A stretch of 27,965 bases of DNA from a virus. The notes under the pieces were generated by a model, which did no database searches, was not told the origin of the DNA, and was given only the letters and a program-made list of their open reading frames with translations. The stretch covers positions 1-27,965 of the IMG/VR virus record IMGVR_UViG_3300032116_001056, one strand, 5' to 3'. Shown here piece after piece: positions 11,862-27,965 of this stretch (positions are counted from its first letter, which is position 1; the number at the start of each line of letters is the position of its first letter). A program made the position numbers and the translations under genes.

Positions 11862-12401
11862 TTAAGTTCGTGTATTTAGCGGAACCATCTGCACGCTCAG
11901 GGTCACTCTAAGCACATTATCTACCTCAGGACCCAGTCCTTGATGGTACTGTGTGCTGTCATAATCCAGCATCAAGCCCGGTTCGGGCAACACCCTGCAG
12001 ATTTCTTGGTCTCCTTGGAAAAACACAGTGTGACCGCACCAGATCTCTTGCCACACAGGATTAAGATAGGCCAGCAGAGTGCGGGCTCCAGGCCGGATGC
12101 TGTCTCTGTGCCGTGCGCTGTGCATGCCCCGGGTCTGTCCGTTGATTACCACACGGTTCGCTCGCAAGTCGCTATGGTTCTGTATCATGTGCTGAACCAG
12201 GCACTTGATCGGGTCCGGCACGTTCGGCAGCCAGATGGATGCAAGATTTCCAGCGGTGTTGGTCAGCGTGGTAACTGGCCAATTCCAGTGCCAGTGATGA
12301 TCACCGTGCATGGCAATGTAGCGCCAGCCAGGCTTCTGATCTATCACTTGCCAGGCAGCGAGGTGCAACTCGGGGTCAAGACGACAGGTAGTATAACTCA
12401 A
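11862..12401 (-). CDS. 2-oxoglutarate/Fe(II) oxygenase (P4H-like)
   Basis: A 179-residue double-stranded beta-helix oxygenase. The iron-binding facial triad is His98 and Asp100 (SARHRDSIRPG) with His153 (TQYHQGLGP), and Arg165 (LRVTLSV) should bind 2-oxoglutarate. Length suits a minimal prolyl-4-hydroxylase-like domain. Phages of this group often carry such enzymes, and substrates are unknown. The start is uncertain: I use a TTG at 12401 preceded by GGTGGAAA, overlapping the nuclease gene by 26 bases. The first ATG, at 12440, would give a 65-base overlap and add residues that look like noise. It is one of three oxygenases in the window and is cotranscribed with the nuclease, iscA and iscU. 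Confidence 0.82.
   Translation of the reverse strand: MSYTTCRLDPELHLAAWQVIDQKPGWRYIAMHGDHHWHWNWPVTTLTNTAGNLASIWLPNVPDPIKCLVQHMIQNHSDLRANRVVINGQTRGMHSARHRDSIRPGARTLLAYLNPVWQEIWCGHTVFFQGDQEICRVLPEPGLMLDYDSTQYHQGLGPEVDNVLRVTLSVQMVPLNTRT
11873..11880 (-). promoter_or_regulatory. T4-type late promoter before the tailspike
   Basis: GCTAAATA followed by CA on the minus strand, ending 23 bases before the tailspike ATG. With T4 spacing the transcript would start near 11866, leaving a leader of about 16 bases that contains a GGA ribosome site. It lies within the last codons of the upstream oxygenase gene. Confidence 0.55.
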
Positions 12402-13089
12402 GTCGTTTCCACCATTCTTGCTCCCAATGATCAAATTCATCAGGACGGAGCATGAATTCTTGATATTCCGGAGGCTTGACGATGTTGAACTGCGCATCCA
12501 CTTCGGGTTTGACACACATCAAGATCACACCTTTGCGTATTTTTGTTCCATGCACTTCGTTATGCGCCAGGGCATAGGCCACCAGCTGTAGTTTGTAATC
12601 GTCGATCCACTCTTCGCGTTTGGGTTTGTTGGTCTGCTTGTAGTCCAAGATGGATTCTTCACCCAGGTGTATGCCACAGCCATCTGTGGTTCCAGCATAC
12701 AGGCCAGGAAAATACAAAGGCACTTCCACACCCCAGAATTCTTCAACATTTTTAAGTCCTTGATCGATCACGGTCATGGCCATGGCATGGCTGGCCCAGG
12801 CATAGGGATTGGTACCAGCTGGCTTTATCTCGCCGGTCTTGACATAGTGCTCCAGGTAGGTGTGCATCCTGGTGCCGCGATTGGCTGCTTCTGTGGTAAT
12901 GGCCTGGGCACGCTCGGTGCCCACACGTTTTTTCCACTCGTTCAAGGCTCTACGGCTTTCTTCGGGCTTGGTACGATCTAAGATCGTTGTAACACTGGGC
13001 AATCTTTGGCCATCAGGTGTGGCATAGAGTCGGCGACCATCTTCGGTTGCGCGATGCAACGGCTGGTAATCAAATCGGTGATTGATCAA
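12376..13089 (-). CDS. PD-(D/E)XK (RecB-type) nuclease
   Basis: A 237-residue single-domain nuclease of the PD-(D/E)XK superfamily. An early RGTRMHTYLEHYV helix (71-83) is followed by Glu122 in GVEVPLY, Asp136 in YAGTTDGCG, the Asp149-Tyr-Lys151 motif in SILDYKQTNK, and the Gln168/Tyr172 motif in YKLQLVAYALAHN, the order typical of RecB/Cas4-like exonucleases. It lacks the four-cysteine iron-sulfur cluster of Cas4 and AddB. Likely role: DNA end processing in phage recombination or host DNA breakdown. The start (ATG at 13089) overlaps the iscA stop by ATGA. The opening motif RLPSVTTIL with an N-terminal KPEES is normal for this phage family. Confidence 0.87.
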   Translation of the reverse strand: MINHRFDYQPLHRATEDGRRLYATPDGQRLPSVTTILDRTKPEESRRALNEWKKRVGTERAQAITTEAANRGTRMHTYLEHYVKTGEIKPAGTNPYAWASHAMAMTVIDQGLKNVEEFWGVEVPLYFPGLYAGTTDGCGIHLGEESILDYKQTNKPKREEWIDDYKLQLVAYALAHNEVHGTKIRKGVILMCVKPEVDAQFNIVKPPEYQEFMLRPDEFDHWEQEWWKRLELYYLSS

Positions 13090-13815: not shown

Positions 13816-14412
13816 TTATATTAGATTGCCACTGACTGATATCCTGATGCCATCCGTTGTGGTAAAAGGATTTACCTGATGTACCAGTTTGCCAGGAAAC
13901 ATGATCATCTTGCCACGCCAGTCTTGATCTACTGGCAAGGTATAGGTACAGACCTTGCCCAAGATCGTGGTGTATTTGAATTCGAAACAACTGTGCCTCT
14001 GTCCGCGAGCATCTGGATACACCGCCAATTCTTCTTTGAGATCGTAGGGTATCTGCACCCAGATCACGAAACTGAGATCACCATCATGATCATGAGATGG
14101 ATTGTATTCATGCCGCTTTTGGAAGTTGGCCCAAACGCTGTCTAACTCAAAGGGTTTTGGCCGTGTCACGGTGCTGGCCGAAGTATATTGAGCAGCCACT
14201 TGCTGAATGAATTCACGGAACTCGGGTGATGGATCAAAACTGTATTGATCTTGAATATGCCCCACGAGATGATCGTTCCAGGGTTTGTATTGATCAGGGT
14301 TGGCTTGGATGTCTGCGCACACCTTGTCAAGATAGGACAGAGCCACCGGAGGGATGTCGAACATTATGAAGCCAAGATTGGGCAGTTGGTGATGTTTTAT
14401 TTCGATCTGCAT
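13816..14412 (-). CDS. 2-oxoglutarate/Fe(II) oxygenase
   Basis: A 198-residue oxygenase of the type common in T4-like cyanophages. The double-stranded beta-helix core has HDHDGDLSFVIWVQIP (His107/His109 region as the first iron ligands), a central FEFKYTTILG strand, and the distal GKMIMFPGKLVHQV (His178) with GIRISVSGN (Arg190 for 2-oxoglutarate). An N-terminal extension of about 90 helical residues precedes the core. Substrate unknown; peptide hydroxylation is a common guess for the family. The ATG at 14412 lies exactly where transcription from the promoter at 14419-14447 should begin, so the mRNA is probably leaderless. It is the first gene of the oxygenase-iscU-iscA-nuclease-oxygenase unit. 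Confidence 0.85.
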   Translation of the reverse strand: MQIEIKHHQLPNLGFIMFDIPPVALSYLDKVCADIQANPDQYKPWNDHLVGHIQDQYSFDPSPEFREFIQQVAAQYTSASTVTRPKPFELDSVWANFQKRHEYNPSHDHDGDLSFVIWVQIPYDLKEELAVYPDARGQRHSCFEFKYTTILGKVCTYTLPVDQDWRGKMIMFPGKLVHQVNPFTTTDGIRISVSGNLI

Positions 14413-14448: not shown

Positions 14449-14799
14449 CTAAATGGCTCGTTTGGTTGCTCGTTTGGCCATGCTGTCCACGGTTTGGCGT
14501 GCTTGGTCAACGGACATTTCGGGAGGGGTCTGTTCTGCGCCCTGGAACACCACAGTGGCAGTGTCAGGATCATCGCCTTCGACATCGTTGATAAAAGCAT
14601 TGAGTGGTGGTCGTTGGCTCATCTGCTTGAGCAAGCCGGGCGTAAGGCTGATCCTCTGGCCCTGTGCCAAATTGGCAAAGGTGCGATAGCTGATTATTTT
14701 TTTCTGACTATCAGTATCTTGAATGCGGCCAAGCAAAAACTGGCTGATGGCAGCCAGTTTCTCTTCATCGGGATTTGCAGCTACTTCTCGGATGATCAT
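14449..14799 (-). CDS. Small conserved-type phage protein
   Basis: A 116-residue protein starting MIIREVAANPDEEKLAAISQ. The first half looks like a helical bundle (LAAISQFLLGRIQDTDSQKK) and a FANLAQGQRISLTPGLLKQM segment; the second half is acidic and probably extended, ending in a basic SMAKRATKRAI helix. No catalytic motif. It overlaps the stop of the 288-residue coiled-coil gene by ATGA, so the two are probably made together and may interact. The short MIIREV opening resembles that of other small proteins of this phage type. Function unknown. Confidence 0.65.
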   Translation of the reverse strand: MIIREVAANPDEEKLAAISQFLLGRIQDTDSQKKIISYRTFANLAQGQRISLTPGLLKQMSQRPPLNAFINDVEGDDPDTATVVFQGAEQTPPEMSVDQARQTVDSMAKRATKRAI

Positions 14800-15662
14800 C
14801 TGCGTTCACGGCCCAGACTGGTCGCTGGTGTTTCTTCTTCGGGCTCTTCAGCGGGCAAGTTAGCATCCAAGGACAGATCAGCATCTACTTCTCCGCCTGC
14901 TGGCTCAGCGGCGGGCTGTGCTGGTGCCATGCTTTGATCTGCGCCGGGTACCTGCGGAGCCTGGCCTGTGAGCACACCTTGTGCTGATTCCAGTTCGGTC
15001 TTGCCTGCTTGCACAGCTGCCAGCAAGTTAGTCAGTGCCGCCGCTGCCTGGCTTTGGAACTGCGATGCTTGTTCCACGCCCATGTCATTTTTTATAGAAT
15101 CTGTCAAAGCAGGGAGATCCTTGAACTGCATCTCAGAAATGTCCTCCATCATGCCCTGCACTCGATCGATCATGTCTTGGCTGGCCAACACTACCTGTGC
15201 TTGTTGTAGTTCGCTGGCTTCACGGAGACGGCGACTACGCTTTTTATTGTTCTCTGCCATCATGGTAGGATTGTTCATGGCACGCTGGAGTTCGGAGATC
15301 TCGCGCTGTTTTTCTTTGATCTGATCCTGGATTTCGCGCTTTTTCTGGGCCACTTGGGCTGTCTGCAAGGCAGCCTGTTTGGCCACATCGCCTATGCCAG
15401 CTGCAGATGCAGGTGCTTGTTCGATAACGTTTTTCAATGCCTGTTCTACCATGATCAAGCGCAGATAATCAGGATTGCGTTCAGCAAAATGACGGCTCAC
15501 GCTGCCACGCCACTCGCGTAACAATCCTGTGGTACGATTCAACAATGCTTGTGCTTGTTCCGTGCTCAAACGATTGAAGTCCATGCGGTCGCCCATGTGG
15601 CTGCGCAGGGTTTTAGCGATATGGTCTGTTGGACGACGTGCGTCCAGATCTTGCAGTTTCAT
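14796..15662 (-). CDS. Coiled-coil phage protein with acidic tail
   Basis: A 288-residue protein. Residues 1-75 contain a helical domain (LSTEQAQALLNRTTGLLREW), residues 95-150 form a strong Lys/Glu/Gln coiled coil (KKREIQDQIKEKQREISELQ), residues 155-225 are a further helix, and the last 60 residues are a Pro/Ala/Glu-rich disordered acidic tail. This fits a scaffold, prohead-core or adaptor-type protein, but I do not recognise the family with certainty. It has a likely late promoter, GCTAAATA (15686-15693), and a GAGGA ribosome site, so late expression is expected. It is coupled to the 116-residue gene by ATGA. Confidence 0.68.
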   Translation of the reverse strand: MKLQDLDARRPTDHIAKTLRSHMGDRMDFNRLSTEQAQALLNRTTGLLREWRGSVSRHFAERNPDYLRLIMVEQALKNVIEQAPASAAGIGDVAKQAALQTAQVAQKKREIQDQIKEKQREISELQRAMNNPTMMAENNKKRSRRLREASELQQAQVVLASQDMIDRVQGMMEDISEMQFKDLPALTDSIKNDMGVEQASQFQSQAAAALTNLLAAVQAGKTELESAQGVLTGQAPQVPGADQSMAPAQPAAEPAGGEVDADLSLDANLPAEEPEEETPATSLGRERR

Positions 15663-16789: not shown

Positions 16790-17413
16790 TCAGACCTCTC
16801 TGACTTTGCAGTTCAGTGCAATGACCAAGCGATCTTGTGTGCCACGATAAGTCAGTGCTGAATGTGGTACCCAGCTGGGGAATATCACCATCATGCCGGG
16901 TTCTGCGATGAAATCAGTGCTGGTGCTGTTCTGCATCCAGGCCGTGCCGGGATCTACATACATGCAATGATTAGGGTTGTAGAATCTATTGACCCCATTT
17001 TTATCCCCAGCCTTCATGTCGCCAATGTCAAGATAATAGATAGCAGACCACGAACTGTCTGGATGGGCATGTAAGTCATGGTAACCACCGTCTCGGGTGA
17101 TATGGCACCAGGATTCGTGTATGTCAACATCCAAATTCAAACCCGTGGGCCAAAATGCTTGATTGGCATGCGTGATGGCTTGAGAAAAACACTGCCGAAC
17201 CCAGGTAGCAAAGGCCTGAACCGCGGGCGAGTCATCCTGCACAAAATCAAATCCGCTTTCGTAGAGACCGCGTTTGGCCTGCGTTGCTATGCCGCTGACG
17301 TGTTTTTTGGCCTCTAATTCATAACAGAGTTTGGTGAGATCTTGGACCCAATGGTCATGATCAGACCATTGGAAATCGTAGAACATCACGGGCCACAATG
17401 CTATGGGTTGCAT
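16790..17413 (-). CDS. 2-oxoglutarate/Fe(II) oxygenase (TIGR02466-like)
   Basis: A 207-residue oxygenase resembling the putative 2OG-Fe(II) oxygenase family TIGR02466. The opening ALWPVMFYDFQW corresponds to that family's 'F-P-T-P-V' strand. The iron site is in GGYHDLHAHPDSSWSAIYYL (His115/His117 with the conserved SWSAIYYL strand), the distal ligand is His184 in FPSWVPHSALTY, and Arg195 (DRLVIALN) should bind 2-oxoglutarate. Substrate unknown. The start is the ATG at 17413; a TTG at 17431 is the only longer choice and falls in the terminator tail. The promoter-like CGTAAATA at 17419-17426 leaves no room for a leader. Confidence 0.85.
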   Translation of the reverse strand: MQPIALWPVMFYDFQWSDHDHWVQDLTKLCYELEAKKHVSGIATQAKRGLYESGFDFVQDDSPAVQAFATWVRQCFSQAITHANQAFWPTGLNLDVDIHESWCHITRDGGYHDLHAHPDSSWSAIYYLDIGDMKAGDKNGVNRFYNPNHCMYVDPGTAWMQNSTSTDFIAEPGMMVIFPSWVPHSALTYRGTQDRLVIALNCKVREV

Positions 17414-17418
17414 GGTGA

Positions 17419-17426
17419 TATTTACG
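17419..17426 (-). promoter_or_regulatory. Late-promoter-like element abutting the oxygenase start
   Basis: CGTAAATA followed by TCAC on the minus strand; the same 12 bases occur on the plus strand at 20111-20122. It lies between the terminator at 17436-17460 and the ATG at 17413. Since the terminator should cut off upstream transcription, a promoter is needed here, and this is the only candidate. Transcription would start at the ATG itself. Confidence 0.45.
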
Positions 17427-17435
17427 GCCAAACAA

Positions 17436-17940: not shown

Positions 17941-19815
17941 CTATGCTAATTCTGGATTGTTTTTAGCGAAGTTAGCTGCTGAAAATCGCATGCGATCCAC
18001 GAACTTCATGCCCTGTCCGACATAGCCTTCATGCCCAGGCTCGTCGTTCACCGAGGCCTGCACGTCTTGTCCTTGGGCATCTAACTGACGTACCAGTTCG
18101 TTTTTGAGGCTGCTGATATCCAAGAATGCCTGGAACACAGCAGCCATGGCCTGTTTGTTTTCTGTGGCCCATTGGAATATGCGTGGGGCCTTGGCCGGAG
18201 CCTGGCGTTTGACCCACTCGCCAAACCCCTGGATGAGATTGTCATAGGATCCTGAACGCACGCGGCTGTTGATGTATTGTTTTATCAGCGCAGGCAGGTC
18301 TGTGATCTTGCGAGCCCGTAGTTCGGCCGGATTGAACAGTTGGTCTATGGCAGCACCGTAGCTCGAAATTATGCGTTGCACGTCTTTGATTGTGCGATCA
18401 TTGAGACGTATCTGCCCGGTTTCTTTAAGGCTGGGATCCAGGATCAACAGTCCCGGCACGTCAGCCAACTGTGTGGCCTTGATGGGTGTGGCTGGAGCAC
18501 CAGGAGCAGCCAACTGGGTATGAACCACTATGCCCACTTCACTGTTGCCAATTTTTTGCCCCAGGGCCGAATCTACTGGCACACGATATTTCACGGTGTT
18601 GGGTTGGAACTCATAGGCATCATTCTTTATCTCAGGCTGTGATGCATACAACAAATCACCTTGCACATAGCCACGGAAATCCTGTGGCACTGCACGACGC
18701 AACAAAGGAAACAATCTACGATACAGATCCACCAGTTCGCCGCGCTCACCGCCACGAGCGGCCATGATGCGCTCAATCTGTTCAGGACTGGTGGCCAAGC
18801 CATCATAGCCCTTGGCCAGGAAGCCGGATTTGTCTGTGAGAACGAATTCACCCGTGGGCTTGCGACCAAATATTATGGCTGGGCGACCATCCCACTTGAC
18901 CGTGGTATCACCGGGCTGTTTGGCTGCAGACATGATGCCTTGTAACGCGGCCTTTAATCCCCGGCTGCCGCCGTCCAAGACCATGTCCTCAGGATGTTCT
19001 ATGCGCACACCTTCAAATATGGCAATCATGCCTTGATTCACTATGCGGTCTCTCAAACGAGCCAAGAAATTGACTTCGCTTTCCTCCAAGGTTTCATCAA
19101 AGGGCAGACCTTCTCTTTGCATATGGGCCCGGAAATCTGCTATTTTTTCTTCGCGCTTGGGATCCATCTTGAGAGATTTTAGTATGCTTTCTACCGAATA
19201 TAAATCCTTGGCAGAGGCTGTAGGGTTTAGCAACATCTTGGCCACAACATCAGGATCATCAGTCACTATTTCATTGTCGGATCTCTGTGCGATGCCGTCG
19301 TTTTGATTGAGTTTGTAGCCCAGGCTTTTGGCCATGGAGTTTATCATGATGTTGCGCAGGGCGCCTTTGTACTGGCTTTTGGGATCACTGCGCAGGATGA
19401 ACTGGTTCCAGCGAGGCTTGTTGGCAAACATAAAATCGGTCTGCACGAAACCGTTGCTGGGATTGCCGCTGATAGCCGTGAAAAAATGCACCGCGCTGCC
19501 GGATTTACGGATGTATTTCCGGGGGTCAACTTTGTTTTTTGTGGCCCAGTCAGCCAGCCTACCTTCTAACTCGGCCTTGCTGATTTCATTGGCATCAATC
19601 TGCAGGTCAAGGTCGCCACTGCTTTCTTTGCGTCCTGTGCTACCTAACCAACGCGAGGGCAATTGGTCGATGGGATCTTTTTCCGTGCTGAAATCCAGGC
19701 CCGTGACCTGTTCTAACCAGTCTACTGTGGGACCTATTTCTGGCTGTAGGATCCGGCGTGTAAGCGGCTGCCCTTGATCGTCCTTGAATACGTTGCCGCC
19801 TTCGTTAATCTGCAT
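17941..19815 (-). CDS. Putative nucleotidyltransferase / KxDG ligase-like fusion protein
   Basis: A 624-residue protein with two apparent domains. Residues 50-170 carry WLGSTGRKESSGDLDLQID (Gly58-Ser59 and Asp68-x-Asp70) and a later acidic residue in VQTDFMF (Asp127), the order of a pol-beta-type nucleotidyltransferase. Residues 295-430 contain TTVKWDGRPAIIFGR (Lys307-x-Asp-Gly), the adenylation motif I of ATP-dependent ligases, then GYVQGDLLY (382-390) and NTVKYRVP (407-413), and the C-terminus has HEGYVGQGMKFVD (595-607), which resembles the ligase 'E-G-x-V...K' motif. The ligase-like half matches a family of T4-like marine phage proteins (possibly DUF6267). Role in nucleic-acid repair or protein modification is inference. 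It is coupled to the 85-residue gene upstream (11-base overlap). Confidence 0.72.
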   Translation of the reverse strand: MQINEGGNVFKDDQGQPLTRRILQPEIGPTVDWLEQVTGLDFSTEKDPIDQLPSRWLGSTGRKESSGDLDLQIDANEISKAELEGRLADWATKNKVDPRKYIRKSGSAVHFFTAISGNPSNGFVQTDFMFANKPRWNQFILRSDPKSQYKGALRNIMINSMAKSLGYKLNQNDGIAQRSDNEIVTDDPDVVAKMLLNPTASAKDLYSVESILKSLKMDPKREEKIADFRAHMQREGLPFDETLEESEVNFLARLRDRIVNQGMIAIFEGVRIEHPEDMVLDGGSRGLKAALQGIMSAAKQPGDTTVKWDGRPAIIFGRKPTGEFVLTDKSGFLAKGYDGLATSPEQIERIMAARGGERGELVDLYRRLFPLLRRAVPQDFRGYVQGDLLYASQPEIKNDAYEFQPNTVKYRVPVDSALGQKIGNSEVGIVVHTQLAAPGAPATPIKATQLADVPGLLILDPSLKETGQIRLNDRTIKDVQRIISSYGAAIDQLFNPAELRARKITDLPALIKQYINSRVRSGSYDNLIQGFGEWVKRQAPAKAPRIFQWATENKQAMAAVFQAFLDISSLKNELVRQLDAQGQDVQASVNDEPGHEGYVGQGMKFVDRMRFSAANFAKNNPELA

Positions 19816-20062
19816 CTGTGCGTCTCACTGATCGTGTAAATTTTCCTGCGTCTTTGGAACGTATAGCATTCAACAATTTGCGTACCAGGTTTTCTGCTTG
19901 ATCCGGGGGATAGCTCTCTTCGATCTGCTCCACAAGACGCACAGCAGAAGCGATAACATTGTTGGCCCGGCTCTCGATGATGTAGCGACGATCCTTTTCA
20001 GCATGCCGTTCCTGGTAAATGGAATCCAATTCTTCTAATATGCTACGGGTTTTTTTCTGCAT
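19805..20062 (-). CDS. Small conserved T4-like phage protein
   Basis: An 85-residue helical protein (MQKKTRSILEELDSIYQERH then RYIIESRANNVIASAVRLVE and LVRKLLNAIRSKD). The 'I-E-S-R-A-x-N-V-I-x-S-A' helix and the basic KFTRSVRR tail are familiar from conserved small proteins of cyanophage-type T4 relatives; function is unknown. It overlaps the start of the 624-residue gene by 11 bases, so the two may act together. A late-type AATAAATA element (20082-20089) lies 20 bases upstream, with AAAAAGG as ribosome site. Confidence 0.75.
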   Translation of the reverse strand: MQKKTRSILEELDSIYQERHAEKDRRYIIESRANNVIASAVRLVEQIEESYPPDQAENLVRKLLNAIRSKDAGKFTRSVRRTDAD

Positions 20063-20147
20063 GTTGCCTGGACCTTTTTATTATTTATTGTGGTGACCGA
20101 TTCCAACTACCGTAAATATCACACAGGCATATTTAAAGGCATACATT
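20063..20147. promoter_or_regulatory. Divergent intergenic region with late-type promoters on both strands
   Basis: This is the point where transcription direction changes. On the minus strand AATAAATA (20082-20089) precedes the 85-residue gene. On the plus strand CGTAAATA (20111-20118, followed by TCAC) precedes the polymerase-like gene at 20148. Both resemble the T4 late element and both leave a leader containing a ribosome site (AAAAAGG and AAAGGC). No sigma70-type hexamer pair is apparent. Confidence 0.5.
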
Positions 20148-21848
20148 ATGGCGACAGAATTACAGCAGATCGAGGAATTGTTAGCAGAATTCCGCAGGTC
20201 CTGTCCGGACACACTGGACTACCAAGAAAGATTAGCAGAAGAATTTGGCATAATCATCAACCAGAGATTCACGGATTATTTCCTCAAGATACGCAGGGTC
20301 CTAGATCTCAATAAAGACATACCACACATGACACGCGGATCCGCAGGATCCAGCCTGGTGTGCTATCTCATGGGCATAACAGATGTGGATCCCATAGAAT
20401 GGCGCATACCCCTGGCCCGATTCCTCAATCCCTTCCGAGACGATCTGCCTGATGTGGACATCGATGTGCCACACCACCAACAAGAGTTGGCCATGCAAAG
20501 GATCTTTGATGCCTGGCCCGGCAAGACTGCTCGCATCAGCAACTATGTGATGTACAAAGAAAAATCGGCCCGGCGCGAAGCAGCCAAGCGCCTGGGCGCT
20601 CGAGGACGCTTGCCCAAGGAAATAGACTATGCCAAACTGGGCGTGGATGTGGAAGAAGCACGCCGCATAGAGAAAAAACTCATGGGCAAGAAACGTTGCC
20701 TGAGCAAGCACTGCGGTGGAGTCATAGTGTTTGATCGCAAGTTACCGCAGAGCCTGTTCCGCGATGACAATCTCATCTTGCTGGACAAAAACGAAGTAGA
20801 GGATCTCGAGCACCTCAAAGTAGACATCCTGGCCAATCGTGGGCTCAGCCAACTCATGGAGATTGATGCCGCCCGCCGGATACACGAATATCCCAAGGAA
20901 GATGATCTCACAGCGGATCTGCTACAGCGCGGGGATGTCTTGGGAGTGACACAGGGAGAATCCCCGGCCATGCGCCGACTGTTCCGAGCCATCAAGCCCA
21001 CGTCTGTAGAAGACTGTGTGTTTGCCACGGCCTTGGTACGACCCGTGGCCGTGGAAGGTCGTAAAAAGGCTTCGTTCTTCCATGACTGGACCAAAAAAAC
21101 TGTGCAAGAGTCGGCCATAGTATGCGAAGACGATGCCATAGAAAAGATCATGAAACTGATCTCTGTAAATGCCTACGAAGCCGACATGTATCGCCGGGCC
21201 TTTGCCAAGCGCAACGAAGAAAAGGTCATGGAGTTCATGGCTCGGCTGGGTGACCACCCTGATCGACACGCCATCTATCAAGAGATGCAGAGTTTATCAG
21301 GTTTTGGCCTGTGCCGCGCACATGCTGTGAACCTTGGCCGCTTGATCTGGGCCCTGGCCTGGCAGAAAGCACACAACCCCAGAGAGTTCTGGCGTGCCGC
21401 ACTCAAGCATTGCCAAGGAAGTTATGCTCGTTGGGTCTATCGCAACGAAGCCAAGCGAGCAGGCTGGGACCTGCGCGATCTTGGATTTGACAACTGGATC
21501 ACTGAAGATCCTGTGGAGTCATTTGTGGAGCATGGCTGCTGGAATTCTCCGGGCTTCTTGCCGCGAATGGGAGTAAGGAATCTCTACTTGGATAAGTTTG
21601 AGTTTGCTGGTATCGTGGCCAACAGCCGGGTATTCCGCAGAGATCGACAAAAATATATTCACTTCATCACCCTGGGAGTAGGCGAAGGAGAGTATGTGGA
21701 CCTTATCGTGGATCGGCCCATTAAGTATGATTCAGGCTCTGTGATAGTAGGACAAGGCGAACGTCAAAACAGAGACGGTAGCCAGTTTTTGATGTGTCAA
21801 AAATCCAATGTCAAAAGCATAAAAATTGACGAGTATCTAAATCAATGA
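20148..21848 (+). CDS. Reduced C-family (DnaE-like) DNA polymerase
   Basis: A 566-residue protein related to bacterial DNA polymerase III alpha. Residues 62-110 hold RGSAGSSLVCYLMGITDVDP and LPDVDIDVPHH, the palm with catalytic Asp104 and Asp106. HLKVDILANRGL gives the third, Asp226. SKHCGGVIV (186-194), GVTQGESPAMRRLFRAIKP (266-284) and GFGLCRAHAVNL (385-396) match fingers and helix-hairpin regions, and residues 490-560 look like an OB-fold. Compared with DnaE (about 1,160 residues), the N-terminal PHP domain (about 270 residues) and the tau/clamp-binding end are missing. So it could polymerise but has no proofreading or PHP domain here. It heads the only plus-strand operon and overlaps the SGNH gene by ATGA. 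T4-like phages normally use a B-family enzyme, so a repair or accessory role is possible. Confidence 0.85.
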   Translation: MATELQQIEELLAEFRRSCPDTLDYQERLAEEFGIIINQRFTDYFLKIRRVLDLNKDIPHMTRGSAGSSLVCYLMGITDVDPIEWRIPLARFLNPFRDDLPDVDIDVPHHQQELAMQRIFDAWPGKTARISNYVMYKEKSARREAAKRLGARGRLPKEIDYAKLGVDVEEARRIEKKLMGKKRCLSKHCGGVIVFDRKLPQSLFRDDNLILLDKNEVEDLEHLKVDILANRGLSQLMEIDAARRIHEYPKEDDLTADLLQRGDVLGVTQGESPAMRRLFRAIKPTSVEDCVFATALVRPVAVEGRKKASFFHDWTKKTVQESAIVCEDDAIEKIMKLISVNAYEADMYRRAFAKRNEEKVMEFMARLGDHPDRHAIYQEMQSLSGFGLCRAHAVNLGRLIWALAWQKAHNPREFWRAALKHCQGSYARWVYRNEAKRAGWDLRDLGFDNWITEDPVESFVEHGCWNSPGFLPRMGVRNLYLDKFEFAGIVANSRVFRRDRQKYIHFITLGVGEGEYVDLIVDRPIKYDSGSVIVGQGERQNRDGSQFLMCQKSNVKSIKIDEYLNQ

Positions 21849-22681
21849 GACTATTCACATTTGGTTGCAGCCACACCTCTTATCACTATCCTACCTGGGC
21901 AGATATCATAGGCAGGAGTTTCACTGAATTTTACAATTGGGGTCGTCCCGGAGCCGGCAATAATTATATTCTCAACGCGATAAATCGATGCCATCTGACT
22001 CATAAATTCCGGCCCGATGATACCGTGATCATACTTTGGTCGGGTTTGGCTAGAATTGATTACTATCAGATCAATGAATGGTCTCACTTTGTGAATCAAT
22101 ATTTTGATCTATCTCGCAAAGATATACCGTTGTCATGTCCTGTCGGTTATCAATGGTTGTCATTTGCGTGGATGGCATCTGTACAGTACATGCTAGATTA
22201 CCTCAAGATCAACTATAAAATGTTGCATTGGCAGGAATTTGATGGCGATACTGAGCCATACAAACTCTATGGTCCAATCTTAGACCGTATCAAATATGCA
22301 CCCATGACGCCCAATCAAAAACCATATCGTTTACATCCACAGAGTTTAAAATCTGCGCGGCAACTTTACGATAGGATGGCAGGTGCAAGTTGGCCCCCGT
22401 TGGATCAAATTCTAGATGGACAGTATCGCAACATGCCTCTTGATGCATTTGTGAAACAAGAACTATATGACTTTTGTGACATGATTAAGCAAGACAGAAC
22501 GATATCTTCAAATCTTTGGAACACAGTTGATATGCATCCAAGTCCATTGCAACACCTTGCCTGGGTCAATGAACATTTACCAGAATATCCTGTGTCTCCA
22601 ATCACAATTGATTGGATCACGGACATAGATTCAAAACTATCGGCCGGTAAACACTATGACTTTGACTTCAAACACTTTTGA
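21845..22681 (+). CDS. SGNH/GDSL-hydrolase-like protein (DUF6071-type)
   Basis: A 278-residue protein. Block I is FGCSHTSYHYPTWADII, with Ser9 in the nucleophile place of GDS. Block II is NWGRPGAGNNYIL (Gly/Asn), and DMHPSP near residue 230 supplies the Asp-x-His pair of block V. This pattern is that of phage SGNH-type proteins (DUF6071-like, as I recall the family), which may act on cell-surface or sugar esters; no substrate is known. Start overlaps the polymerase stop by ATGA. It ends inside the last codons of the helicase gene on the other strand (14-base overlap), with no terminator between. Codons are richer in A/T than the polymerase gene before it, suggesting separate acquisition. Confidence 0.78.
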   Translation: MRLFTFGCSHTSYHYPTWADIIGRSFTEFYNWGRPGAGNNYILNAINRCHLTHKFRPDDTVIILWSGLARIDYYQINEWSHFVNQYFDLSRKDIPLSCPVGYQWLSFAWMASVQYMLDYLKINYKMLHWQEFDGDTEPYKLYGPILDRIKYAPMTPNQKPYRLHPQSLKSARQLYDRMAGASWPPLDQILDGQYRNMPLDAFVKQELYDFCDMIKQDRTISSNLWNTVDMHPSPLQHLAWVNEHLPEYPVSPITIDWITDIDSKLSAGKHYDFDFKHF

Positions 22682-24074
22682 TTTGATTCAATAGGCTTTT
22701 AAGTTTTGATGACTGTACTTCTGCCGTGATTTTTCCTGGCTCGTCAGCAACAGTGGCATTGGGTTCGTCGTCTGTCAAGGTACTTTTGGCCTTGATCGAC
22801 TCATAGATCGATGGCGCACGTTTTTTGAACTCTTGATAACCTTCATCCTGCGCAAGATCTCGGATGCGCAGGCTTTCGATATCAAATTCCAGCTCCACTT
22901 TCTGTCCTACACCCGAGGAACTACGAGTCTTCATCAACTGTAATTGATAGCGACCACGCTCACGCATGGCTCTCGATGTAAAGATACCAAATACGTTGTC
23001 CGCAGTATTGATCTTAGAAATACCACCTGAGATATGGCTATGGTCAAACTCAATTTCTTCCACTGCCGCACGATTCAACTGGCTTGCTGTGACAAATAAG
23101 ATGTTGAGTTCTTTGGCCAGGTTGCGCAGTTCTTCCGACACATATTTGTCTTTGACAAACAGGTCATTGGGTGATACCTTGGCACTCACTGGCATGAGTA
23201 GATCCAAATAATCCACACACAGGAAATCTGCCTTCAATCCGGTCTGTATCTGCAGTTCTTTGAGATACGCCCGGATGTCGTTCACTGTGCTCTGTGCAGG
23301 CATGTATTTGATACGCATCTTGCCCGACTTCTTGCCCATCATCTTGATCTTCATCTCTACGGTGTCAAGGTCTCGGAAGATCTCTTTTTGTGCTGTGTTG
23401 GTGAGCATGCCATCGATACGCATGGCACACAGACCTTCGGAAAGTTCCAAAGTGATGTACACTCCAGAAAGTCCGGCCTCTACCCAATTCACTGCCAAGT
23501 TCTGCATGAACAGGCTCTTGCCCGAGCCCGATCCACCCGCAAAGATCTGCAGTTCGCCGCGATTGAATCCGCCATACAACAGCTTGTCCAAGGCAGGCCA
23601 ACCTGTGCTGTTCTGGCCGTTGTTGTTTTTCAAGGCCATCAATCTCGCACGCGGATCATCAAAGTAATCTGTGCCCATGTCCTTGGTCAAGGATATCTGC
23701 ACTGCATCCTTGATCAGTTTTTCCACAGGATCAAAGTTGCCTTTTTCCAGCAAGTCCGCTGATTTCAAGATCGCACGTTCCAGTTCTTGCCTGCGTGTGA
23801 ATCCTTCAAACTCTTCCAAGAACCAGTCAAAGTGTCCTTCAGTGAGATCAGGGATGTGTTCCAGACGAGTGGATGTGGTAGCCGACACCTGCGCACGGTC
23901 CGGCATGGTCTTGTGCTTGTCGCAGTGTTCTTTTATGAACTCGGCTGCTGGACGCAGGCTGCGATCAAAGTTTTCTGGATTGTAGATGTTCTGCACACGG
24001 ATGTAACTCTGTGCATCCTGCAACATCATCTCCAGGAACAGTCGTTGGACATCAATTCCGTAGTCTTTTAACAA
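22668..24074 (-). CDS. Replicative DNA helicase (T4 gp41/DnaB-like)
   Basis: A 468-residue RecA-fold helicase. The N-terminal 130 residues are a helical domain. The motor has Walker A GGSGSGKS (180-187), the GVYITLELS strand, Walker B FLCVDYLDLL (Asp288), and the TASQLNR sensor motif near residue 330, then ISGGISKINTADN and LMKTRSSSGVG with the likely arginine finger. Length matches T4 gp41 (475). Role: hexameric 5'-3' unwinding at the phage fork, working with the primase encoded directly upstream (23-base overlap). The C-terminal 40 residues (DDEPNATVADEPG to SLLNQIKSV) are a disordered linker and short helix that may bind a partner. The 3' end overlaps the convergent SGNH gene. Confidence 0.94.
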   Translation of the reverse strand: MLKDYGIDVQRLFLEMMLQDAQSYIRVQNIYNPENFDRSLRPAAEFIKEHCDKHKTMPDRAQVSATTSTRLEHIPDLTEGHFDWFLEEFEGFTRRQELERAILKSADLLEKGNFDPVEKLIKDAVQISLTKDMGTDYFDDPRARLMALKNNNGQNSTGWPALDKLLYGGFNRGELQIFAGGSGSGKSLFMQNLAVNWVEAGLSGVYITLELSEGLCAMRIDGMLTNTAQKEIFRDLDTVEMKIKMMGKKSGKMRIKYMPAQSTVNDIRAYLKELQIQTGLKADFLCVDYLDLLMPVSAKVSPNDLFVKDKYVSEELRNLAKELNILFVTASQLNRAAVEEIEFDHSHISGGISKINTADNVFGIFTSRAMRERGRYQLQLMKTRSSSGVGQKVELEFDIESLRIRDLAQDEGYQEFKKRAPSIYESIKAKSTLTDDEPNATVADEPGKITAEVQSSKLKSLLNQIKSV

Positions 24075-25041
24075 GTTGCTTCTTCCTTAGTTCTATCTTG
24101 ATTTTACTGGTTTCTCTGGCTTGGAATATATGTATCAAGGTCACCAATTGGCCAAAGCACTTTACTGCATCATTGACATCTTTGATGTTCGATGGCCACT
24201 CAGGCATGCTCACTGCCCAGCCCAGTTCTACGGCACGATCAACCAGTTTCATGCCGGCTTCGTCCTGATCTGGAACCACAGTGACTTCGCGATCCAAGCT
24301 GCGTATCAATCTGGCCTGTGCATCGTTGATTTCAGCATGCAACACAGCCAACCCTGCGATGCTGAGTGCGTCAAACACGCCCTCGACAACGATCGCATGT
24401 TTCCAATTGGGGCCTTGTAGATCTGTACCAAACACATAGCCTGGTTGCATGTCATGGATATATCGTGGATTATGATCATCAAAGAATCTCTGGGTATGTC
24501 CTACTATGCGCCCGTCATAGGTAAATGGTATGATCACACCCTGCCGACGGCTGAACTTGTCATCGGGCTGACCATGTATCATGCCCGTGGGGTAGTTCTC
24601 CGGCACACAGCGATCTCTGAGGTATTGCCAATGCACTGGCATGTGCTGATCTATCAGTGCAAAGGTATCGGGCAGTTCTCGGTCTTCAAATTCAATGCCT
24701 TGTACCGTATTGGCAGTCCTCTGCCGATCGTCCAGGATACCTTGCACACTGCGATGTCGCAGGCTTTCAAGATTGACACGCTCGATCTCTTCCTTGGGTA
24801 CATTCAGCCATTGCAAAAATCTGCGGGCCTTGAAAGACAAGTTGCGGCCCTGGATAAAACTGGCCGTGAATCCACAGTTGAAACAGTGGAAACTCCAGCC
24901 CTGATCATTGACTTTGATCCCACCACGTTGCCGGCGGTCCGAAGATTCGCCGTTGTGAACACAACAAGGTGCATTGAATGATATCCATCCCGACGCGGTA
25001 CTCTTGCGTTTGGTTGGAAGATAAGGGAGTATGTCAATCAC
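24052..25041 (-). CDS. DNA primase (T4 gp61/DnaG-like)
   Basis: A 329-residue primase. A zinc-binding module is formed by Cys26/Cys27 and His29 with Cys53 and Cys56 (NAPCCVHNG...FHCFNCGF). The TOPRIM core has Glu220 in AIVVEGVFDALS and Asp258-x-Asp260 in VVPDQDEAG, and GVIIPFTYDGRIVGHTQRFF (168-187) is the usual preceding strand pair. Length matches T4 gp61 (342). It makes RNA primers on the lagging strand with the helicase whose gene follows by overlap. It begins with GTG at 25041, sharing GTGA with the stop of the SGNH gene upstream. A basic C-terminus (KIKIELRKKQLVKRLRN) may contact DNA or the helicase. Confidence 0.93.
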   Translation of the reverse strand: MIDILPYLPTKRKSTASGWISFNAPCCVHNGESSDRRQRGGIKVNDQGWSFHCFNCGFTASFIQGRNLSFKARRFLQWLNVPKEEIERVNLESLRHRSVQGILDDRQRTANTVQGIEFEDRELPDTFALIDQHMPVHWQYLRDRCVPENYPTGMIHGQPDDKFSRRQGVIIPFTYDGRIVGHTQRFFDDHNPRYIHDMQPGYVFGTDLQGPNWKHAIVVEGVFDALSIAGLAVLHAEINDAQARLIRSLDREVTVVPDQDEAGMKLVDRAVELGWAVSMPEWPSNIKDVNDAVKCFGQLVTLIHIFQARETSKIKIELRKKQLVKRLRN

Positions 25042-25766
25042 TCAATCATTGTAACACGATCTATTTCAGGAATCAACCTTGATGCTATCCATTCATGACC
25101 CTGGATGTTTGGATGGCCCATGGGTGCCAACAGATGTTGTCGATGCGGTAGATATTTGAACTGGGTTTGCAGACATTGGTCTGGCCATAACACAGTGGAT
25201 TTATTGATCACGGTCACGGGTTGCAGAGTATTAAATTGTAACAATCCGCGATGATTTTCTCTTTGTCCATGAAAAAACAACACAGCCTGCCTGTAATTTA
25301 AATCATGAGATTCTGGGCAATCGGTCAGTGCCATGTGTTTTTTAACCATGTCCTCCCATGCTTGCTGAATGGTGGCCTTGCCACTATGTACCCATGCGCT
25401 GTGAACGAAACGGTTCCATGGGGGATCGTTGGCGTAGCACACATGATCTACCTCATAAAAACTGTGGCGGTTGGCATCAGTAAGAGCGACCAAAACCAAA
25501 CACTGATCCAAAGGCACAGATTCGTGTTCGACCCACCACAGATAGGTCCAGATAGTGCTTTGTAAACTACCTCCGGGCAAACCAAAATTCTCTGTGGGCA
25601 CGCCATAATGCCGACCCAACTGCCCCAGAAAACATTGAGATTCTCTGTACACAGTGTTCTCTACTAACACAGGATGTGCGTGGGGGTGATCGATCAAAGC
25701 AGGGTCCAATAACTCGTCGCCCCACATGAAAGAATCTCCAAATCCTACGATTTTATTAAACTTCAT
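25038..25766 (-). CDS. SGNH/GDSL hydrolase family protein
   Basis: A 242-residue protein with a canonical block I, VGFGDSFMWGDELL (Ser12 as nucleophile), a block II Gly in FGLPGGSLQST, and block V in MGHPNIQGHEWIA, where His and Asn/His suit the catalytic pair. This is the second such protein in the window, more canonical (GDS) than the plus-strand one (GCS). Possible esterase or deacetylase acting on host envelope sugars or virion glycans; nothing in the sequence fixes the substrate. Start overlaps the beta-rich gene upstream by ATGA and its stop overlaps primase by GTGA, so translation is coupled to replication genes. Confidence 0.8.
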   Translation of the reverse strand: MKFNKIVGFGDSFMWGDELLDPALIDHPHAHPVLVENTVYRESQCFLGQLGRHYGVPTENFGLPGGSLQSTIWTYLWWVEHESVPLDQCLVLVALTDANRHSFYEVDHVCYANDPPWNRFVHSAWVHSGKATIQQAWEDMVKKHMALTDCPESHDLNYRQAVLFFHGQRENHRGLLQFNTLQPVTVINKSTVLWPDQCLQTQFKYLPHRQHLLAPMGHPNIQGHEWIASRLIPEIDRVTMIE

Positions 25767-26570: not shown

Positions 26571-26578
26571 TATTTATG
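26571..26578 (-). promoter_or_regulatory. Late promoter, minus strand, facing the previous one
   Basis: CATAAATA followed by TC on the minus strand. It would start transcription near 26565 toward the TTG at 26506. It overlaps the start codon of the plus-strand gene at 26576, and the two leader RNAs would be complementary over about 20-35 bases. Confidence 0.5.
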
Positions 26579-26953
26579 GGTGAAAACTTGTTCGTGACAC
26601 TAAGCCAGAAGTACCCTTTCATCACCTTGTGCATCCATGCGGGCAACGAATATGTGGGCATCATACAAAATCGCGATGCTGATATCACCAGTCTATATGA
26701 TTTTGGTGACATCCATGATCCTGTGCTAAAACGCCGTTTCTTGGACCTTGGCAGCACCTGGTGGTGGGAAAGCAATCACAGCATTCCTATCAACATATTC
26801 CTGCGTAATGAATGGGACGTTTTCCGCGATTATATACGCACATTCAGCAACAAAGATCTCGAAATCATACATGGCCCTGTGTGCAGTCTCAGCGAGATCA
26901 GCCGGCGCAAAAGTAAACGGAAATCAATCACTTTGGTTCGCAGGGTAGATTAG
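26576..26953 (+). CDS. Conserved T4-like phage protein (STWWWESN motif)
   Basis: A 125-residue protein on the plus strand between two minus-strand operons. It has strands YPFITLCIHAGNEYVGIIQN at the start, then LGSTWWWESNHSIPINIFLR and a FRDYIRTFSNKDLEIIHGPV helix and strand, and a basic end SRRKSKRKSITLVRRVD. I recognise the 'W-W-W-E-S-N-x-x-I-P-I-N-I-F' run from conserved uncharacterised proteins of marine T4-like phages. Its 3' end overlaps the small polymerase-like gene on the other strand by 30 bases. The ATG at 26576 lacks a close ribosome site; a TTG or GTG a few codons on is possible. Confidence 0.75.
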   Translation: MGENLFVTLSQKYPFITLCIHAGNEYVGIIQNRDADITSLYDFGDIHDPVLKRRFLDLGSTWWWESNHSIPINIFLRNEWDVFRDYIRTFSNKDLEIIHGPVCSLSEISRRKSKRKSITLVRRVD

Positions 26954-27490
26954 ATTCATGTGCAAGGCCACCAGTCGGGCATAGCTCACTGCATGGCTTT
27001 TCTTGAATGTATATCCTCGGCTGTCGTCACCGTCCCATACTGACTCAAAAACACGATCCCATGAGTGCCCTTGCAGGTGTGCCTTGCCAGGACGTATTAT
27101 CGATATAAAAGCAGCCATGCGAGGTATGCTGTCTGGGCGCATGGCCGACAGCAGATCAGTATAGTTGCCCACGTGTATCAAGGACTTGGCCCAATCAGAA
27201 TCTTGCCACAGTTTGGCCCAATCTGGCTCCTGGGCCAGCATGCGGTCATAGTGCGCTTGATCTTGGATCAATTGATACACCCCAAGATTCAACAGATCGA
27301 TCTTGAAATATCCGCGTTGCTCTGCGGTTTCATAGTCTATGGCTGCACAATCCAGCACAGGATCTCTGGGTATGTTTTGTATGTACACTCCGGAATTGTG
27401 TCGGCGATCGCCTTGCCTGGCTGGCACATGCTGTATCAATGACAGCACACGGCTTCGGTCTGGCAAGTCTATGTCGATATCTGCGCTCAT
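26924..27490 (-). CDS. Miniature DnaE-like polymerase-core protein
   Basis: A 188-residue protein that keeps the core signatures of C-family polymerases in the right order: SADIDIDLPDR (Asp6 and Asp8 aligning with the DxD of the 566-residue protein), HNSGVYI (31-37, the H-x-x-G-V segment), GYFKIDLLNLGVYQL (Asp65 as third acid), PDSIPRMAAFISIIRPG (119-135) and YTFKKSHAVSYARL (160-173). It lacks PHP, most of the palm/thumb, and the C-terminal domains. Related short proteins exist in T4-like cyanophages with no known function. The start is the ATG at 27490, overlapping the upstream stop as TGATG; a longer frame to 27565 would be mostly overlap. Activity is unknown: it may be a DNA-binding regulator or a minimal enzyme. 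Confidence 0.8.
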   Translation of the reverse strand: MSADIDIDLPDRSRVLSLIQHVPARQGDRRHNSGVYIQNIPRDPVLDCAAIDYETAEQRGYFKIDLLNLGVYQLIQDQAHYDRMLAQEPDWAKLWQDSDWAKSLIHVGNYTDLLSAMRPDSIPRMAAFISIIRPGKAHLQGHSWDRVFESVWDGDDSRGYTFKKSHAVSYARLVALHMNLIYPANQSD

Positions 27491-27965
27491 CACCATCCTG
27501 CCTTGGTCAATATTTCTCTGGCATACTCGGCGTCGGCCCTGTAGTCGCGGAACTTCCGCTGCCAAAAATCACTGTCTATCATGGGCCAGATCATGGCGAT
27601 CTGCTCTTGAGATAGATTCTCCAGCAGAGTCATGCCAGATCCACAGTTGTACAACACCCATGGCGATATCTTACCCGTGGTGATGGCGTAGCACACCCGA
27701 TTGGTGTTACCATAGCGCAGATAATCTCGATCTGGATTGCCAGTTTCTTCAGCCCAGGTCATGGCTTCTTCTATGGCACGAGCCAGGGCGTCAGCAGTAG
27801 ATTCAGATCTAACATAGTCAGTGATGTATTCTCCATAGATAGAGTCTCTGCACCAGTGATCAATTTTTTTGTTGTGCTTGAGCAGCCAGTCAATGAACCG
27901 GGCGACATTTATGGCCTTGATGTCTACACAGTATCGTCCAAATTTTACGAATGCACGATAATAGG
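27490..27965 (-). CDS. Partial conserved phage protein upstream of mini-DnaE
   Basis: An open frame from the right edge to the TGA at 27490, 157 visible residues; the N-terminus lies beyond the window, and the ATG at 27762 is internal. The visible part reads YYRAFVKFGRYCVDIKAINV, then FIDWLLKHNKKIDHWCRDSI and YGEYITDYVRSESTADALAR, and later ISPWVLYNCGSGMTLLENLS. The pattern 'F-G-x-Y-C-x-x-x-K-x-I-N ... W-L-x-K-x-x-K-x-I-D-H-W-x-x-D-S-x-Y-G-E' is familiar from conserved proteins of T4-like marine phages, where it is uncharacterised. It is coupled by TGATG to the small DnaE-like gene, so the two products may work together. Confidence 0.78.
   Translation of the reverse strand, partial: YYRAFVKFGRYCVDIKAINVARFIDWLLKHNKKIDHWCRDSIYGEYITDYVRSESTADALARAIEEAMTWAEETGNPDRDYLRYGNTNRVCYAITTGKISPWVLYNCGSGMTLLENLSQEQIAMIWPMIDSDFWQRKFRDYRADAEYAREILTKAGW

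Follow-up and report, generated by a model that had tools for sequence, protein, structure and literature searches.

A compact, PHP-less C-family DNA polymerase beside the replicative helicase of RaK2-like jumbo phages, a candidate accessory enzyme

The window analysed here, a viral fragment of 27,965 bases deposited in a public virus collection, has the gene order of positions 204.9–234.0 kb of a 328-kb relative (G001), with identities of 78% for nrdA, 74% for nrdB, 80% for the helicase and 77% for the polymerase described below. The order split Pol III C-unit, primase, helicase, exonuclease, nrdA and nrdB is common, whole or in part, to RaK2, Paride, Phosso and Atu_ph07. Because of this shared replication gene order, we assign the window phage to the RaK2-like "group 2.2" jumbo phages (Iyer et al., 2021, PMC7824862); among the traits of that group, the C-unit and the gene order are seen in the window itself, and the B-family polymerase and both split Pol III units are seen in its relatives G001, G019 and G020.

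An unsplit open reading frame with an ATG start (positions 20148..21848, plus strand) encodes a protein of 566 residues, hereafter P0001, which is a PHP-less C-family DNA polymerase core (palm, thumb and fingers) with a C-terminal OB fold. Its convergent neighbour is a gp41/DnaB-type replicative helicase (22668..24074, minus strand; Pfam DnaB_C, PHROG_19), a neighbour of the polymerase gene in almost every locus, and the helicase gene is itself adjoined by that of a gp61-type (Toprim) primase (24052..25041, minus strand), recognized by domain matches and by the same gene order as in RaK2, Paride, Phosso and Atu_ph07. The polymerase stop is overlapped by 4 nt by a 278-aa ORF (21845..22681, plus strand), SGNH-hydrolase-like by motif (GCSHT) and with no match in Pfam, PHROG or NCBIfam. 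This lineage-specific second gene adjoins the polymerase gene only in loci L002 and L061; G001 has a distant homolog of it close to the B-family polymerase. The original prediction had described P0001 as the head of the only plus-strand operon; a plus-strand gene it is, but positions 26576-26953 (+) hold another conserved gene of that strand. A second SGNH-hydrolase-like ORF, at 25038-25766 (-), forms with the 278-aa ORF a pair marked by GCSHT and GDSF motifs and without family matches, and proteins of similar appearance are encoded in the corresponding slot of locus L149 and, in G001, close to the B-family gene.

On its other side, the polymerase gene is flanked by a conserved 85-aa gene (19805..20062, minus strand), which in Paride, Phosso and Atu_ph07 lies close downstream of the helicase with no polymerase gene between (the gap is ~65 nt in Paride), and which marks the far edge of an insertion slot. 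P0001 and the helicase are tail to tail in the window and in its closer relatives, and in 48 more distant relatives P0001 lies on the helicase strand, downstream of the helicase; orientation is a lineage trait, and the helicase neighbourhood is the constant. Other genes occupy the slot in L149 and L158, and in L151 the interval between the flanking genes yielded no P0001. The slot gene of L158 (16492-17541, minus strand) is radical-SAM-like as judged from its CxxxCxxC-like motif, and the cargo carried between the helicase and the 85-aa gene is thus varied. In the 364-kb record G020, which is syntenic here (helicase 71%, split C-unit 69%), the slot holds another plus-strand ORF, and a search across the whole record found no P0001. 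Since the gene is missing from its slot in G020, L149, L158 and L151, it is dispensable in some close relatives.

Two Pfam domains exceed their cut-offs in P0001, namely DNA_pol3_alpha (3.7e-40, residues 22-229) and the finger domain (3.6e-14, residues 244-363), with the palm starting at about residue 20; the same search returned no PHP, tau-binding or other domain. The closest solved structures by sequence are the Pol III alpha subunits of E. coli, Thermus and mycobacteria, with PolC weaker. In an AlphaFold2 model of moderate confidence (mean pLDDT 69, pTM 0.58), residues 1-453 align with about residues 282-838 of E. coli alpha (palm, thumb and fingers; Z ~20), residues 480-560 form an OB fold (Z ~10, rmsd ~2 Å), and residues 453-480, in the place of the DnaE clamp-binding region, are predicted to be no more than a short link. 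The Pfam matches and the fold comparison agree with the palm, fingers and OB-like part that had been read from the sequence, and with the loss of the PHP domain, of the tau-binding end and, apparently, of the clamp-binding part. A scan for the consensus clamp-binding motif in five members of the family gave a single, non-conserved hit, near the N-terminus of the L072 protein, though a clamp-binding motif of a new type may be present. The phage genomes searched for a PHP gene, among them G001 and G002, gave no match; the clamp family profile PF02916 missed even RaK2 and is uninformative on the presence of a clamp in these phages.

The catalytic acids (Asp104 and Asp106 in the PDVDID motif, and Asp226 in KVD) are invariant in 47 diverse relatives, as is the GRGS-type dNTP-binding motif (RGSAGSS), which disposes of the concern that relatives might carry mutated acids and suggests that P0001 is an active polymerase. 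Pairwise dN/dS values, in pairs with measurable (unsaturated) dS, range from 0.03 to 0.08, and on this ground P0001 is a real, constrained gene; the family is under strong purifying selection. With a mean identity of 0.71, P0001 evolves as slowly as the helicase (0.68) and more slowly than the primase (0.51) or the split C-unit (0.52), and it co-diverges with the helicase (r=0.89).

A first scan for relatives found 179, of which 80, with 77–100% identity, were kept. A second scan, seeded with P0001 and with its homolog from LR756508.1 (36% identical), reached 267 and added about 70 at ~62% identity to P0001; with the LR756508 protein as sole seed, nothing was found. The family numbers hundreds of relatives in environmental viral contigs. 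Among annotated phage records, the only near homolog is that of LR756508.1 (484 kb, from an uncultured phage), the other records sampled reaching ~31% identity or less. A scan of bacterial genome contigs with the family alignment found no relative and did not locate a bacterial origin. In an LG+G4 tree, which is small, has long branches and leaves out PolC, P0001 and the LR756508 protein group together (UFBoot 100) at the end of a long stem, apart from every DnaE1, DnaE2, DnaE3 and further phage DnaE sequence sampled; a second long branch holds the split Pol III units. An origin of P0001 by fusion or duplication of the split pair was considered and is unsupported by this tree, with the caution that its branches are long.

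Upstream of the polymerase gene we identified a TAAATA element (20113..20118, plus strand), which resembles a late promoter and is present at -70..-15 in 89% of 151 relatives of P0001, many of them close and hence not independent, against a background of 1.5%. The element also precedes several genes presumed late or structural, among them the 85-aa gene (94%) and the gene at 14796-15662 (100%), and it is nearly absent from the helicase (2%) and absent from the primase (0%) and the split unit (0%). Late promoters of T4 have the sequence TATAAATA (PMC3014915), and by analogy transcription of P0001 would be late. As a conserved element, the late-type promoter named in the original prediction is thus supported. 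The separate control from helicase and primase that had been proposed for this gene is consistent with such a promoter; the opposite orientation, also cited in its favour, does not hold across the family, polymerase and helicase genes being collinear in 48 relatives.

Between promoter and start codon, the leader contains two copies of the repeat AGGCA (20125..20129 and 20137..20141, plus strand), the second near the Shine-Dalgarno position. AGGCA is found at -25..-3 in 99% of the 151 leaders (background 2.2%). On average -50..-1 contains 2.3 copies, compared with 0.06 in the background, and other genes of the window have almost none; the repeats take the place of a normal Shine-Dalgarno, the canonical GGAG/AGGA occurring in only 2% of these leaders. 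The 44 non-redundant leaders usually carry 2–4 direct repeats, spaced mostly 9–12 nt apart, and the final copy mostly begins 8–11 nt before the ATG. Such a pair occurs once in the window and, in G001, at the P0001 gene and at one other place before an ATG. The LR756508 leader has no AGGCA repeats, and a search of the P0001 leaders for strong hairpins found weak folding only. Since the T4 proteins RegA, gp32 and gp43 bind leader RNA and thereby repress translation (PMC3014915), it is reasonable, by analogy, to read the AGGCA leader as a putative translational operator.

A second C-family polymerase part is encoded in the same window. The gene at 26924..27490 (minus strand) specifies the 188-aa C-terminal unit of a split minimal Pol III alpha (PHROG_11778 'DNA polymerase', 4e-52, and alignment); the ORF list starts it at 27565, and its homologs, that of G001 being the one used, place the start at MSADIDID, at 27490. 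Relatives of this unit were found in 63 phage records, including RaK2, PA5oct, Paride and Atu_ph07. Its partner, an N-unit of ~157–175 aa that ends just before the DxD motif, is present in RaK2, Paride, Phosso and G001, and was not found within the window. The co-existence of this split enzyme with a B-family polymerase has already been described for group 2.2 jumbo phages, where it was suggested to serve one strand or repair (Iyer et al., 2021, PMC7824862); the split enzyme is known, and P0001 is the addition. Two records of the C-unit deserve mention. In Atu_ph07 (NC_042013, FDI40_gp074) the annotated start lies downstream of the DxD region included in the tblastn match, and the protein of that record may miss part of the active site. 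In G019, the match at C1:221186-221743 crosses one in-frame TAA, possibly a frameshift, an error or a true stop near the end.

The polymerase complement of the longer relatives bears on whether P0001 is a main or an accessory enzyme. G001 has, in a 907-aa frame, a gp43-like B-family polymerase that is complete and includes the exonuclease; its C-terminal sequence, TFNTLFEFE, looks like a clamp-binding tail as judged by reading the sequence. Both G001 and G019 (316 kb) carry three polymerases, namely the B-family enzyme, with its exonuclease, both split Pol III units and P0001; LR756508.1 also encodes a B-family polymerase. The two-polymerase picture of the original prediction was right in expecting a B-family enzyme elsewhere in such genomes, and has to be extended to three, the split C-unit in the window having been overlooked. 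Because G020 keeps the B-family enzyme and the split pair without P0001, we consider P0001 to be accessory rather than the main replicase, as the original prediction had foreseen should both polymerases co-occur. The presence of the B-family gene was checked in a few long records only. The window is a fragment, but its phage is likely to have a B-family enzyme as well: the metagenome that yielded contigs 100% identical to window proteins also yielded one with a B-family match, at 79% identity to the G001 enzyme. The 183-kb contig G011 has no B-family polymerase and was rejected as evidence; it matches mainly positions 181–296 kb of G001, whose B-family gene lies at 105 kb.

From these comparisons we consider it probable, though far from certain, that P0001 is an active, stand-alone, non-proofreading accessory polymerase of a RaK2-like phage. 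Bulk replication would be carried out by the gp43-like B-family polymerase, with its own exonuclease and clamp-motif-like tail, and P0001 would work next to the gp41 helicase, most likely at a late stage of infection; it would hold single-stranded stretches through its OB domain and fill gaps or tolerate lesions there, unaided by a sliding clamp and presumably with low processivity. Late gap filling or lesion-tolerant synthesis is favoured because of the late-type promotion, the dispensability of the gene and the presence of a proofreading B-family enzyme. Against a minor accessory role stands the constraint on P0001, which equals that on the helicase and is more than would be expected of such a protein. 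The main rival, which we regard as rather unlikely, makes P0001 a primer-extension partner at the fork, extending the RNA primers of gp61 on the lagging strand before handing over to the B-family polymerase, as Bacillus DnaE3 (DnaE) does with PolC. The position of P0001 next to the helicase in nearly all loci, its collinearity with it in the 48 relatives, their co-divergence and the lack of a proofreading domain would all suit such a partner, and primer extension would fit the helicase linkage as well as gap filling or lesion tolerance does. Against a fork partner stand the late-type promoter, unlike those of helicase and primase, and a sister genome in which helicase, primase and B-family polymerase are retained and P0001 is missing.

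The remaining explanations are further from the data. That P0001 is the main replicase of the lineage, with the B-family polymerase demoted, is very improbable: conservation as good as that of the helicase, near-constant proximity to it and an intact active site speak for this explanation, but the B-family polymerase of G001 is complete with its exonuclease, G020 retains that enzyme and has no P0001, and P0001 itself has no recognizable proofreading, clamp-binding or tau-binding part. We find it very improbable, too, that P0001 is a translesion polymerase of the DnaE2/ImuC type captured from a host mutasome, an assignment that had been raised at the outset and that is not supported. The NCBIfam profile that scores best is indeed PRK05672, error-prone DNA polymerase, at 164.6 bits, with the general DnaE model reaching 157.5, but all NCBIfam scores lie far below the curated cut-offs (those against PolC being weak), the LR756508 relative scores best with a DnaE1 model, and the tree places the clade outside DnaE2 with full support. 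A search for Y-family/ImuB partners (PF00817) gave no match in G001 and six other records, the genome of the window's own phage being incomplete. Least probable of all is a non-catalytic structural or regulatory relic. Second roles are possible in phage replication proteins, T4 gp43 and gp32 being translational repressors (PMC3014915), and the P0001 leader is unusual; nevertheless, an invariant catalytic triad and RGS motif and the low dN/dS are difficult to reconcile with a relic.

Among known enzymes, the split minimal Pol III alpha (PMC7824862) is likewise a phage-specific, PHP-less C-family core that accompanies a B-family polymerase, and its C-unit is encoded together with P0001 in every locus of sufficient length. 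The split enzyme, however, consists of two short proteins (~160–175 and 186–213 aa) encoded by distant genes, has no OB domain and has its core broken before the DxD motif, whereas P0001 is a single chain with an OB domain and full fingers, in a separate clade. With bacterial DnaE1 and DnaE3 it shares homologous palm, thumb, fingers and OB domains in the same order (25–31% identity), but at half their length, without PHP and C-terminal tau-binding domains and with the clamp-binding region reduced to a short link. The PHP domain is universal in the bacterial C-family groups (DnaE1-3, PolC), and even DnaE2, which works with ImuA/ImuB, keeps it, mostly inactivated (PMC12926913); P0001 lacks it and thereby differs from all of these groups. 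It resembles DnaE2/ImuC in being a C-family enzyme from which no proofreading is expected and in its best single profile, but its phages have neither the PHP domain nor a Y-family protein in the records searched. The DnaE-like polymerases of Streptomyces phages, Pbunavirus and mycobacteriophages are also of the C-family and of PHROG_405; those sampled have 1031–1158 residues, with ~300 extra N-terminal residues (in Karate, two adjacent genes), and the tree does not place P0001 within them. The LR756508.1 homolog has the same 566-aa architecture as P0001, but its phage differs from that of the window in its gene neighbourhood, in the AGGCA leader, which it lacks, and in the separate split C-unit, which was not found there.

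In the literature covered, bacterial C-family polymerases are large, PHP-bearing enzymes and the only minimal form in RaK2-like phages is the split pair; no description of an unsplit family of the P0001 type was found in the literature searched, subscription papers being outside its scope. P0001 is a compact, unsplit version in the same phages, which keeps the catalytic core and the OB fold and drops the other domains, and as such it offers a natural minimal C-family enzyme in one purifiable chain. More tentatively, these phages may form a widespread jumbo-phage lineage with three DNA polymerases of two families (gp43-type B-family, split minimal Pol III and compact unsplit PHP-less C-family), the third possibly controlled through its own translational operator of AGGCA repeats, to which the polymerase itself or a RegA-like repressor would bind. 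They provide a system for testing the division of labour among three polymerases, and sister genomes with and without P0001 constitute a natural experiment on the purpose of the gene.

Elsewhere in the window, three minus-strand ORFs (11862-12515, 13816-14412 and 16790-17431) match 2OG-Fe(II) oxygenase families or the related PHROG_274.
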